Notes under the pieces: generated by a model
Databases searched by the model: none
What the model was told of the DNA's origin: nothing
What the model saw: the letters and a program-made list of their open reading frames with translations, nothing else
Shown here: positions 5,303 to 8,154 of the stretch, one piece after another
How positions within the stretch are numbered: the first letter of the stretch is position 1
Layout of the letters: each line of letters opens with the position of its first letter
Made by a program: the position numbers and the translations under genes
From: an uncultured Eubacteriales bacterium
Lineage (GTDB): Bacteria; Bacillota; Clostridia; Peptostreptococcales; Anaerovoracaceae
Length of the DNA: 64,000 bases
NCBI GenBank assembly: GCA_902775345.1
Contig: CACYLW010000003.1
Coordinates: 186,001-250,000 of the forward strand
Direction: 5' to 3'

Positions 5303-6433
5303 ATGAAAAAGATACTCATCCCGATCGAAGAAACACAGAGGAGTCTGAAAGCGGTCGCATATGTTAAGAAGCACTATACGCCTGAAGAGGCTGAGATAGT
5401 GCTCATGATGATAGATGAGAGACTCGGATATTCAGTAAGGACCGATGTAGAAAGTGCTGCAATCAAGCAGCTCGATGAGAAGCTCGATCTCATAGCCGAA
5501 GCATTCGAAGGATACAAGGTAACCAAGCTGTCTGCTGTCGGAAAGGCAGGCGTGAGGATAACCAGAGCTGTACGCGAGACCGGAGCAGATCTTGTAATAA
5601 TGACAAAGTCTTCCAAGGAAGACATGCTCAACTCCATCGGAACGACTGCCGAGTACGTGATAAACAACTCGCCTTGCGATGTAATTATCGTGAGCGAGCA
5701 GGCCGGCTCACGCAATGAGTACAGAGGACTCGTCTACAAGACGGCAAGGGGGACTGTCAATCTCAGAGGACAGCTGGGTGACAAGCAGAGCGAATGCCTC
5801 CTCCCGAGTGTCAATCAGGACTGCATATATCACATAAACGTTACGGTAGGAAAGATCAGATTCTTCCACACCGCTTATAATCCGGATACCAGAAACTGGG
5901 ATCTCCCGCCTATCCCGGGACAGGATGTAACGCTTGACATAGCTGCCGGTGAGACAAGAGACATTCTCGTCAAGGCTGACAGCACTGACGGCAAGGCAGA
6001 CAGGATCAGGATAGTCAACAGGGATATGAGAAAGGAAGCGGTGTTCGATTTCAGGATCACAGCTGCTCCTGAGAATCACGAACCGGAACCGGAGCCTGAA
6101 GAAAAAGAGAAGACGCCTTTCGAGAAGAGAGCAACGCTTGAAGTTCCTAGAACAGGCATTCCGAAGGACTTTGAAGCCCCTGAGGTGCCTACGTTCGTTG
6201 CAGAGGCAAGAGCTGAGTTCGATGCTCTTGAAAAGGAAGTTGCTGATGCGGCAGCAGCGGCTGTGGATGCGGTCTCAAAACACGAGGAAGCACCGGCTGT
6301 ACCGGCAGAAACTAAAGTATATGACGCATCGAGCTTCGTAGACTATCTGGTGGAAGAGATCAAAAACGAAGAAGCCGCAAGCGGATCATTCAAGGATCCT
6401 GATACGATGTTCTCGGTAGAGATAAACGAATAG
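5303..6433 (+). CDS. Universal stress protein domain protein with long C-terminal extension
   Basis: A 376-residue protein. Residues 1-137 form a UspA-type alpha/beta domain (MKKILIPIEETQRS at the start, a GKAGVRITRAVRETGADLVIM stretch, and SPCDVIIVS at the end). Residues about 140-252 are a beta-rich region that I do not recognise, and the rest is an acidic, alanine- and proline-rich tail (EPEPEPEEKEKTPFEKR and beyond). The canonical Usp ATP-binding loop G-x2-G-x9-G-(S/T) is not clear; the equivalent region reads SIGTTAEYVINNSP. Usp proteins act in stress survival or signalling in the cytoplasm. The extension may be a protein-interaction arm. A likely single-gene unit with its own promoter. 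Confidence 0.8.
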   Translation: MKKILIPIEETQRSLKAVAYVKKHYTPEEAEIVLMMIDERLGYSVRTDVESAAIKQLDEKLDLIAEAFEGYKVTKLSAVGKAGVRITRAVRETGADLVIMTKSSKEDMLNSIGTTAEYVINNSPCDVIIVSEQAGSRNEYRGLVYKTARGTVNLRGQLGDKQSECLLPSVNQDCIYHINVTVGKIRFFHTAYNPDTRNWDLPPIPGQDVTLDIAAGETRDILVKADSTDGKADRIRIVNRDMRKEAVFDFRITAAPENHEPEPEPEEKEKTPFEKRATLEVPRTGIPKDFEAPEVPTFVAEARAEFDALEKEVADAAAAAVDAVSKHEEAPAVPAETKVYDASSFVDYLVEEIKNEEAASGSFKDPDTMFSVEINE

Positions 6434-6459: not shown

Positions 6460-6488
6460 TTGACAGATGCACGGCGTAATGGTATCCT
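6460..6488 (+). promoter_or_regulatory. Predicted strong promoter for scfA
   Basis: A perfect -35 TTGACA (6460-6465) and a -10 TATCCT (6483-6488) are spaced by 17 bases; TG at 6480-6481 gives an extended -10 (TGGTATCCT). The scfA ATG is about 27 bases beyond the expected transcription start and has a good CGGAGGAATTC ribosome site. Confidence 0.65.
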
Positions 6489-6521: not shown

Positions 6522-6671
6522 ATGAAGAGAATCAAGACTATAACAACAAGAGATATGGCTGAGTCAAAGGTCACCGGCGGATGCGGTGAGTGCCAGACTT
6601 CGTGTCAGTCTGCAAGCAAGACTTCCTGCAGCGTTGCAAATCAGCACTGCGAGCAGCGCAAGGAAAAGTAA
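6522..6671 (+). CDS. scfA: SCIFF-family ribosomal peptide precursor, five-cysteine variant
   Basis: A 49-residue peptide beginning MKRIKTITTRDM and containing the hallmark GGCGECQTSCQSA and KTSCSVANQHCE blocks. This is the SCIFF (six cysteines in forty-five) family of Clostridia, whose precursor is modified by the radical SAM maturase encoded next to it. Cysteines are at 21, 24, 28, 36 and 43. The usual fourth cysteine (residue 32, in SACKTSC) is Ser (codon AGC), and residue 37, which is Thr in characterised homologues, is also Ser. From memory of the CteA and Tte1186a work, the known thioether joins Cys32 to Thr37, so this precursor lacks both partners. The gene has its own promoter, a strong ribosome site and a terminator before scfB. 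Confidence 0.93.
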   Translation: MKRIKTITTRDMAESKVTGGCGECQTSCQSASKTSCSVANQHCEQRKEK

Positions 6672-6682
6672 GATGCTTACGG

Positions 6683-6714
6683 CGGCGCTGCATGATGCAG
6701 CGCCGTTTTTCTTT
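6683..6714 (+). terminator. Intrinsic terminator / attenuator between scfA and scfB
   Basis: A perfect 10-base-pair stem CGGCGCTGCA (6683-6692) / TGCAGCGCCG (6696-6705) with a three-base loop TGA is followed by TTTTTCTTTT. It lies 11 bases after the scfA stop and 22 bases before scfB, so partial read-through would give much more peptide than maturase message. Confidence 0.9.
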
Positions 6715-6735: not shown

Positions 6736-8154
6736 ATGATACATCAATACATTTTAAACGGATATAATATGGTAATAGACGCCGCAAGCGGCGCGGTCCA
6801 TTCGGTGGATGAGGTAGCTTACGATGCGATACAGAAGCTGGATGAAGAGGTGACCGGTGCCGGTGCAGGCGCTGCTTTCAGTGACAGCGGGCTCATTGAC
6901 CGGATCGCATCAGAGATCTCACGGAAGCACGGGATCAGCGAAGACGATGCGAAGGAGACTCTGGGTGATATAGCAGAGCTTCATGAGCAGGGCCTGCTCT
7001 GGTCTGAGGATCCTTTTGAGCAGGCAGCCGATGAGATCAAGATCAGGCAGTCGGTGCTCAAGGCGATCTGCCTTCACGTAGCTCACGGATGCAACATGGA
7101 CTGCGAATACTGCTTCGCCGGAAAAGGCGATTACAGCGGCAAGAGCGGCATCATGAGCGCGGAAGTCGGAAAGCGCGCCCTTGATTATCTTGTGGAGCAT
7201 TCCGGCACCCGCAGGCATCTTGAAGTGGACTTCTTCGGAGGGGAACCTCTCATAAACTGGGATGTCTGCAAGGAGATAGTCGCTTACGGAAGAGAACTGG
7301 AGAAGAAGCATAACAAGATCTTCAACTTCACGCTGACCACAAACGGAGTGCTTATCGATGACGATGTCATAGACTTCACGAACCGCGAGATGGGCAATGT
7401 GGTGCTCAGCATGGACGGAAGACGTGATACTCATGACCGCATGAGGCACAGCAAGACAGGCGGCGGTACTTACGACATGATAATGGACAATTTCAGGGCT
7501 CTGGTAGATTCACGCCTTGAAAACGCTGAAAGATCTTCCGAGTACTACATGCGCGGAACATACACCGCTTACAACAAGGACTTCGCGGCTGATGTGATCG
7601 CGATGGCTGACCTGGGGTTCAGAGAGACATCGATAGAGCCGGTAGTATCGGATCCCGATGTACCGTACGCGCTTCACGAGGAGGATCTTCCTAAGCTATA
7701 TGAAGAATATGAGAAACTGGCTCTGGAGATGCTCGCAAGAGAGGAGCGTGGCGAGGGCTTCAGCTTCTATCACTATACGGTAGATCTTACGGGAGGTCCG
7801 TGCATTTACAAGCGGGTCGCAGGGTGCGGAGTTGCTACTGAATACCTCGCGGTCACACCAACCGGAGACCTTTACCCATGCCACCAGTTCGTAGGCGACG
7901 ACAACATGATAGTCGGCAATATATATGACGGGATAACCCATCCTGAGACGGTCGGCATTTTCAGCAGCGGCAATAATATATACACACGTGACGATTGTAA
8001 AAACTGCTGGGCAAGACTGTACTGCGCCGGAGGATGCGCGGCAAACAATTACCATTCAAACGGAGATATCAACAAAGTTTACCGGTTCGGCTGCAAACTC
8101 CACAGAAAGCGTATCGAATGCGCTCTGATGATGGCGGCTGCGCGTGAAAAATGA
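6736..8154 (+). CDS. scfB: SCIFF radical SAM maturase (SPASM family)
   Basis: A 472-residue radical SAM enzyme. The N-terminal region (about 1-95) resembles the peptide-recognition part of SCIFF maturases (MIHQYILNGYNMVIDAAS). The SAM-cluster motif CNMDCEYC places cysteines at 119, 123 and 126, followed by the FFGGEPL motif. The C-terminal SPASM region (about 355-460) holds many cysteines (CIYKRVAGCG, YPCHQF, CKNCWARLYCAGGCAA, FGCKL) for auxiliary iron-sulphur clusters. Family members cross-link a Cys sulphur to a nearby residue of the peptide. It follows scfA through the attenuator. All cluster cysteines appear intact even though the peptide has lost the usual donor Cys, so the enzyme is not obviously decayed. 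AGGGGA precedes the ATG. Confidence 0.94.
   Translation: MIHQYILNGYNMVIDAASGAVHSVDEVAYDAIQKLDEEVTGAGAGAAFSDSGLIDRIASEISRKHGISEDDAKETLGDIAELHEQGLLWSEDPFEQAADEIKIRQSVLKAICLHVAHGCNMDCEYCFAGKGDYSGKSGIMSAEVGKRALDYLVEHSGTRRHLEVDFFGGEPLINWDVCKEIVAYGRELEKKHNKIFNFTLTTNGVLIDDDVIDFTNREMGNVVLSMDGRRDTHDRMRHSKTGGGTYDMIMDNFRALVDSRLENAERSSEYYMRGTYTAYNKDFAADVIAMADLGFRETSIEPVVSDPDVPYALHEEDLPKLYEEYEKLALEMLAREERGEGFSFYHYTVDLTGGPCIYKRVAGCGVATEYLAVTPTGDLYPCHQFVGDDNMIVGNIYDGITHPETVGIFSSGNNIYTRDDCKNCWARLYCAGGCAANNYHSNGDINKVYRFGCKLHRKRIECALMMAAAREK

Follow-up and report, generated by a model that had tools for sequence, protein, structure and literature searches.

A SCIFF precursor lineage with serine in place of the characterised donor cysteine, and matching differences in its maturase

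Results

A five-cysteine SCIFF precursor gene adjoins a maturase gene

The stretch of DNA analysed here (64,000 nucleotides; hereafter the window) carries a precursor gene, scfA, whose stop codon lies 64 nt ahead of the start of an adjoining gene of the TIGR03974 maturase family, scfB (Table 1). Translation of the scfA open reading frame gives MKRIKTITTRDMAESKVTGGCGECQTSCQSASKTSCSVANQHCEQRKEK, which scored 76.3 bits against the NCBIfam model TIGR03973, 'six_Cys_in_45' (cut-off 50). The model is named for six cysteines within a span of about 45 residues; the window peptide has five, at residues 21, 24, 28, 36 and 43, and is therefore a variant SCIFF precursor rather than a typical six-cysteine member. 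The residue that would be the donor Cys32 in a thermocellin-type SCIFF is a serine, and of the two acceptor positions described for that type Thr34 is present and Thr37 is absent. The reading frame and the TIGR03973 match thus bear out the original prediction, made from the DNA letters, of a SCIFF precursor with AGC-encoded serines at residues 32 and 37.

The scfB product scored 668 bits against TIGR03974 (cut-off 425) and aligned over its residues 1–468 with CteB (5wgg; E = 5e-150, 504 bits). It contains the CX3CX2C cysteines (Cys119, Cys123 and Cys126), the SPASM cysteines (Cys364, Cys382, Cys421, Cys424, Cys430, Cys434 and Cys453), which follow the motif CX9-15GX4C...CX2CX5CX3C...C as given in PMC6231123, and in addition Cys356. 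By profile and by cysteine pattern it is a SCIFF maturase, and the claim that it keeps its cluster cysteines stands.

A promoter-like sequence upstream of scfA agrees with the consensus at 10 of 12 bases; as the scanned region held two such sites, with 1.7 expected from shuffled sequences, its assignment as the scfA promoter is suggestive only. The hairpin between the two genes (z -3.3; two terminator-like sites in the region, 1.1 expected) may serve to hold the precursor in excess over the enzyme. Terminator-like hairpins were also found in the scfA-scfB gaps of 140 of 155 loci with Ser32 peptides, 34 of 65 with Cys32/Gly37 peptides and 58 of 99 with Cys32/Thr37 peptides, counted by a simple scan with no shuffled control and with repeats still included. 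The neighbours look like ordinary genes: upstream lie a phosphoglucomutase gene, an open reading frame (ORF) with no Pfam match and an ORF for a universal stress protein, and downstream lies a Ham1/RdgB pyrophosphatase gene. In the ORF directly upstream of scfA (positions 5303–6433, forward strand), the universal stress protein domain (residues 1–130) is followed by a long, Glu-rich extension that has no Pfam match.

The genome to which the window belongs (90.5% complete, 26 contigs) yielded one scfA at E ≤ 0.001 and one scfB at E ≤ 1e-60. A second, intact six-cysteine scfA, which the original prediction had named as one of the findings that would speak against it, did not turn up in this genome at E ≤ 0.001.

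Table 1. Positions of scfA, scfB and associated features within the window
Feature	Position	Strand	Remark
Promoter-like sequence (sigma-70-like), upstream of scfA	6460..6488	+	TTGACA, 17 nt, TATCCT; TG before second hexamer
Shine-Dalgarno-like GGAGGAA	6509..6515	+	6 nt before scfA start
scfA	6522..6671	+	SCIFF precursor, 49 aa, five Cys, Ser32/Ser37; complete ORF; TIGR03973 match
Cys28 codon TGT	6603..6605	+	Proposed donor in Ser-type peptides; invariant in 281/281 peptides
Ser32 codon AGC	6615..6617	+	Site of donor Cys in characterised SCIFFs
Thr34 codon ACT	6621..6623	+	Acceptor assigned by co-expression in E. coli; invariant in 281/281 peptides
Cys36 codon TGC	6627..6629	+	Ser in 2/75 Ser-type peptides, two different codons
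Ser37 codon AGC	6630..6632	+	
Intrinsic-terminator-like hairpin between scfA and scfB	6681..6707	+	12 pairs, then T run
scfB	6736..8154	+	Radical SAM/SPASM SCIFF maturase, 472 aa; TIGR03974 match; CteB 5wgg match
scfB Lys130	7123..7125	+	Four residues after radical-SAM Cys126
scfB Val366	7831..7833	+	Two residues after Cys364, first SPASM-motif Cys
scfB His456	8101..8103	+	Three residues after Cys453, last SPASM Cys

Ser32 marks a lineage, and residues 32 and 37 are coupled

scfA was found in 43 of the 47 genomes of the genus, including the genome of the window, and all 43 peptides were read, one of them truncated after residue 42 by the end of its contig. Every one has Ser32, with Ser37 in 42 and Ala37 in one. 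Ser32 is therefore neither a sequencing error nor the mark of a single odd strain, and the clade-wide occurrence for which the original prediction had suggested looking is indeed found. In the four genus genomes without scfA (completeness 94, 82, 68 and 74%), scfB was likewise absent at E ≤ 1e-60.

A wider sample comprised 281 distinct peptides from 275 genomes and 80 more from named records, 361 in total, counted after removal of repeats (identical record, core and leader); twelve loci (L249–L260) carried no SCIFF peptide. Sampling was non-random, with the genus complete, many loci taken from best hits among the matches listed and some matching genomes unread, so that the frequency of Ser32 peptides is enriched and genus counts are the fairer measure. 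Among the 281 peptides, residues 32 and 37 are Cys/Thr in 126 (110 genera, 54 families), Cys/Gly in 79 and Cys/Ala in one (40 genera, 16 families), and Ser/Ser in 74 and Ser/Ala in one (20 genera, 2 families); we refer to the last group, 75 of 281 peptides, as the Ser type. The combinations Cys32 with Ser37 and Ser32 with Thr37 or Gly37 did not occur among the 281 peptides, and Ala37 occurred once with Cys32 and once with Ser32. Residues 32 and 37 are thus coupled.

Ser32 is also present in named records of Mogibacterium pumilum, M. timidum, M. kristiansenii, Baileyella intestinalis, Mobilibacterium timonense, Gallibacter intestinalis, Alterileibacterium massiliense and a strain labelled Anaerovorax odorimutans; the lineage consists of anaerobic, largely gut-dwelling bacteria. 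A later, phylum-wide draw from the matches listed added one Ser/Ser peptide from a third family, outside the class of the window (genome G916, locus L381), and newly sampled genomes supplied 25 further Cys32 peptides (5 and 20). SCIFF pairs as such are widespread in the Clostridia, with at least 176 of 247 genomes in the family of the window and at least 322 of 391 in its class.

Several loci depart from the usual arrangement. Genome G136 has two Ser-type scfA genes (L225, L226) and two scfB genes, on different contigs. Five loci among the matches listed (L035 in G086, L333 in G362, L356 in G635, L358 in G482 and L371 in G788) encode head-to-tail fused precursors, in which a single open frame of 95–112 codons spans two leader-core units; every one of them belongs to the Cys32/Gly37 type.

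Residues 21–35 of Ser-type peptides are under constraint

Cys21, Cys24 and Cys28 are present in all 281 peptides, and Cys43 in all 280 whose sequence extends that far. Among 74 Ser-type peptides counted, 59 have five cysteines and 15 have six or seven. An additional Cys46 occurs in 13 of these 74, in 3 of 80 Cys/Gly or Cys/Ala peptides and in none of 109 Cys/Thr peptides; at this frequency it is no general substitute for Cys32. Where present, it produces a CEQC or CEKC end (for example L102, L109, L116, L118, L127, L215 and L381).

Two Ser-type loci of genus g42 (L170 and L248) have lost Cys36 as well. Their peptides read SASKTSSSV in this region, with TCA and AGC as the Ser36 codons and two changes on the tree, and retain Cys21, Cys24, Cys28 and Cys43 of the usual six cysteines; their scfB genes have all cluster cysteines in place. 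This observation weakens the case for Cys36 as an obligatory replacement donor.

Codon changes were mapped on a clade II scfB tree of 167 rows (clade II is defined below), 92 of them Ser-type. In the Ser-type rows, the Ser32 codon changed five times between AGC and AGT, and the Thr34 and Cys28 codons ten times each, with zero amino-acid changes; throughout residues 21–35, zero amino-acid changes accompanied 1–32 codon changes per site. As the codon changes at residue 32 were all synonymous, Ser32 is maintained as a serine, beyond a mere loss of cysteine. All 152 Ser32 peptides of the genome set and the named records encode this residue by AGY, one base from the TGY codons of cysteine; Ser27, Ser30 and Ser35 of the same 152 peptides are all encoded by TCN.

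These data make a drifting peptide without a cross-link, or an assembly artefact, hardly credible: a count of five rather than six cysteines and the replacement of Cys36 in two genomes of one genus would fit, but the serine is shared by all 43 genus peptides and across 20 genera, codons in residues 21–35 have changed without changing the protein, and the cluster cysteines of scfB are kept.

Thr34 is invariant and residue 37 is not

The SCIFF linkage is disputed in print: the reviews PMC8326336 and PMC8172795 give a Cys32-Thr37 link for Tte1186a and CteA in vitro, and a Cys32-Thr34 link, with the sulfur on the γ-carbon, for CteA co-expressed with CteB in E. coli. For SCIFF chemistry we relied further on PMC12406949 and PMC11002830. 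In our sample, residue 37 is glycine in 79 of 206 Cys32 peptides. Glycine has neither a β- nor a γ-carbon. Because Thr34 is invariant in the sample and residue 37 is often glycine, the data favour Thr34 over residue 37 as the conserved acceptor, as far as conservation can indicate it; the invariance of Thr34 could have other causes.

The original prediction had both ends of the known bridge missing from the window peptide. The loss of the donor, Cys32, stands; since Thr34 is retained, the donor is the only end that is surely missing, and the loss of both ends holds solely under the in vitro Cys32-Thr37 assignment. Nor is the loss of Thr37 special to the Ser32 clade, as the Gly37 peptides with Cys32 demonstrate.

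Maturase residues next to the clusters co-vary with the precursor type

A maturase was found at 343 of 368 peptide loci; 323 were within length limits, and the 262 left after removal of repeats were aligned with the window scfB and CteB. In 95 of 95 Ser-type maturases the CX3CX2C cysteines and the SPASM cysteines Cys364 and Cys382 are kept; Cys421, Cys424 and Cys430 are present in 94, Cys434 in 93 and Cys453 in 88, the remainder being gaps.

On a tree of 158 of the 262 maturases, the precursors were sorted under five labels (Cys/Thr, Cys/Gly, Ser/Ser, Ser/Ala, and Ser/Ser with Ser36), and four changes, the fewest possible, account for them. A branch with support 100 sets the maturases of Cys/Thr precursors apart from clade II (72 rows), which comprises the Cys/Gly group (support 99) together with the Ser rows. 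The best tree places the Ser rows on one side of a branch, but SH-aLRT support for this uniting branch is only 20, so that the change may have been either a single origin of Ser from Cys or a reversal in the Cys/Gly group. Clade II scfB genes were found in many families, and one family outside that of the window (f74) contains all three types (Ser/Ser, L263 and L264; Cys/Gly, L357; Cys/Thr, L298 and L300). This distribution suggests horizontal transfer of scfAB or old paralogy.

Within clade II, three of 451 scfB columns separate the Ser type from the Cys/Gly type without overlap. Site 130 is Lys (66), Glu (28) or Asp (1) in 95 of 95 Ser-type maturases vs Gln in 72 of 72 Cys/Gly maturases; this site is not diagnostic against Cys/Thr maturases, 12 of which have Lys and 8 Glu. 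Site 366 is Val in 95 of 95 vs Ser (68), Ala (3) or Cys (1) in 72 of 72. Site 456 is His (77), Gln (10) or Arg (1) in the 88 Ser-type rows that reach it vs Phe (67) or Leu (1) in 68 of 68 Cys/Gly rows; Cys/Thr maturases mostly have Glu here, with Gln in 17. Against Cys/Thr maturases, site 366 alone is nearly diagnostic of the Ser type: 93 of 95 have Ser, Ala or Cys, and the two with Val (L304 and L314, with Cys32 peptides) are the only two among all 167 maturases of Cys32 precursors. Residues 118 and 132 differ as well but overlap between types, and with 12 and 29 changes they are variable inside the set; they were set aside as markers.

Columns other than ligands within four residues of a cluster cysteine number 62 of 440, so that all three sites would fall there by chance with a probability of about 0.003, with a proximity cut that was picked after the three sites were known. 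Out of sample, site 366 was Val in G916, the only new Ser32 genome, and Ala or Ser in all 21 readable new Cys32 genomes (5, then 16 of 20). Of the checks that the original prediction had put forward, co-variation of the maturase thus also came out in its favour, with states that follow the scfB tree.

Discussion

Relation to known systems

The window scfB belongs to the same maturase family as the enzymes of thermocellin (CteA/CteB) and Tte1186a/Tte1186. The Cys/Thr peptides of our sample share the core CGECQTSCQSACKTSC, in which Thr34 is present; CteA and Tte1186a themselves were compared via their published description. The window peptide differs from thermocellin and Tte1186a in having Ser32 and Ser37 instead of Cys32 and Thr37, and its maturase has Val at site 366 instead of the Ser of CteB. 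The Cys32/Gly37 SCIFFs are the sister group in our sample: they have a leader similar to that of the Ser type (RI-T-x-TR-[DN]-[LM] in most), share Thr34 and maturase clade II (support 100), and are unlike the Ser type in Cys32, Gly37 and the maturase residues Gln130, Ser366 (68 of 72) and Phe456 (67 of 68). In the freyrasin system (PapA/PapB), PapB is a ranthipeptide synthase with sequence similarity to scfB, whose match to the PapB model (262 bits) is below the cut-off of 340. PMC8172795 and PMC9413430 describe six freyrasin rings, formed by Cys-to-side-chain thioethers between Cys and Asp in CX3D repeats; the window SCIFF core, unlike these repeats, has no Asp.

As both precursor and enzyme exceed the curated cut-offs of known families, the Ser type is not a new family. 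What sets it apart is that the characterised donor residue is absent across a lineage, with matching differences in the enzyme. We found no report of a Ser32 SCIFF among the matches listed by our searches, which covered open-access papers.

A redirected thioether as the preferred reading

We read the Ser type as a stable variant in which SCIFF precursor and maturase have evolved together; tentatively, and with somewhat less than even confidence, we suggest that its thioether is redirected to another donor. ScfB very probably still acts on the Ser-type peptide, because in the genomes tested the two genes occur or are missing as a pair, and both partners are constrained; it would bind the leader and run radical chemistry on the core as before. 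If a thioether is made, its sulfur would have to come from another core cysteine, because Cys32 is absent. Thr34 would be the natural acceptor, because it is invariant even where Cys32 is missing, and the likeliest product would be a ring in which a thioether joins Thr34 to Cys28 in the first place, or to Cys36 in the second. Cys28 is preferred because it is invariant, while Cys36 is Ser in L170 and L248, which have an intact scfB. We consider it likely that the Ser-type peptide is modified at all; a product with a thioether to Thr34 seems to us as likely as not, and the odds for Cys28 as its donor fall some way below that.

The bridge chemistry of the Ser32 lineage is probably different from that of the characterised SCIFFs, and the enzyme offers candidate determinants. 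Judging from its position in the sequence alone, residue 366, next to the first SPASM cysteine, may line the open site of the auxiliary cluster Aux I; if so, having Val there rather than Ser or Ala could plausibly change which cysteine is presented. Val366 by itself is compatible with a Cys32 donor, since L304 and L314 combine it with Cys32 peptides. The maturase differences could also be inherited company rather than causes, because a single branch of the tree carries the switch between Cys and Ser. Likewise, recognition or metal binding, instead of cross-linking, could be what preserves Thr34, Cys28 and the rest of residues 21–35. The related enzyme PapB accepts expanded and contracted Cys-Asp spacings according to PMC9413430; the review PMC8172795 calls it strict for Cys-X3-Asp, which weakens an argument from PapB promiscuity.

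Alternative readings

The strongest competitor, which we still regard as rather unlikely, is that no cross-link is formed. The Ser-type peptide would then be a bound partner, unmodified or processed in the leader only, in which Cys21, Cys24, Cys28 and Cys43 serve as ligands to a metal or an iron-sulfur cluster, with the open Aux I site of ScfB as one such target, and a thioether at residue 32 would never have been the conserved function of SCIFFs. The pattern of cysteine retention fits well, as precisely these four are kept in every peptide that reaches them and Cys32 and Cys36 can be lost, and in the CteB crystal, as described in PMC8326336 and PMC6231123, the open Aux I site is bound by a peptide cysteine other than the donor. 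Against this reading, the radical-SAM cysteines persist in 95 of 95 Ser-type maturases, scfB is absent from all four genomes that lack scfA, the fully separating scfB changes adjoin the clusters, and the invariance of Thr34 would have no explanation unless this residue is used or recognised.

A second possibility turns Ser32 from donor site into acceptor: within a CX3S motif, Cys28 would attack the β-carbon of Ser32, as a counterpart to the CX3D thioethers of PapB. The C28-QSA-S32 spacing equals that of CX3D as given in PMC9413430. Moreover, Ser32 is fixed in 75 of 75 Ser-type peptides, is AGY-encoded in all 152 when named records are included and has undergone repeated synonymous change, none of which a simple loss of Cys would require. 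Against this stand the acceptors described in the portion of PMC9413430 consulted, which are carboxylates with no serine precedent among them, and the consideration that Ser32 is perhaps kept just for its size or hydrogen bonds; we judge this reading improbable. We would call unlikely, though less so, the broader proposal that clade II Ser-type ScfB makes some linkage without Cys32, for instance a Cys28-Ser32 β-thioether with the donor site turned acceptor, and that cluster-adjacent residues such as 366 switched the choice of donor.

Very improbable, finally, is a radical chemistry at Ser32 or Ser37 other than thioether formation, such as an anSME-like oxidation of Ser to formylglycine. Both residues are Ser, distantly related SPASM radical-SAM enzymes (anSME) oxidise Ser or Cys according to PMC8172795, and the window scfB does match anSME, weakly (55 bits). 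Its matches to TIGR03974 (668 bits) and CteB (504 bits) are far above anSME (TIGR03942, 97 bits), however, and Ser37 is replaced by Ala in one Ser-type peptide of the 281-peptide set.

Implications

The sampled genomes provide three matched natural states (Cys/Thr, Cys/Gly and Ser/Ser), and to each corresponds a separate part of the maturase tree. These states are relevant to both published acceptor assignments, with Thr34 invariant and residue 37 replaceable by Gly, and point to maturase residues for the choice of donor. If a linkage without Cys32 were made by the clade II enzymes, the Cys/Gly group, which has no side chain at residue 37, would indicate that this residue is not the acceptor in SCIFFs generally. 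The Ser type also raises the question of whether a thioether at Cys32 is really the point of the SCIFF system.
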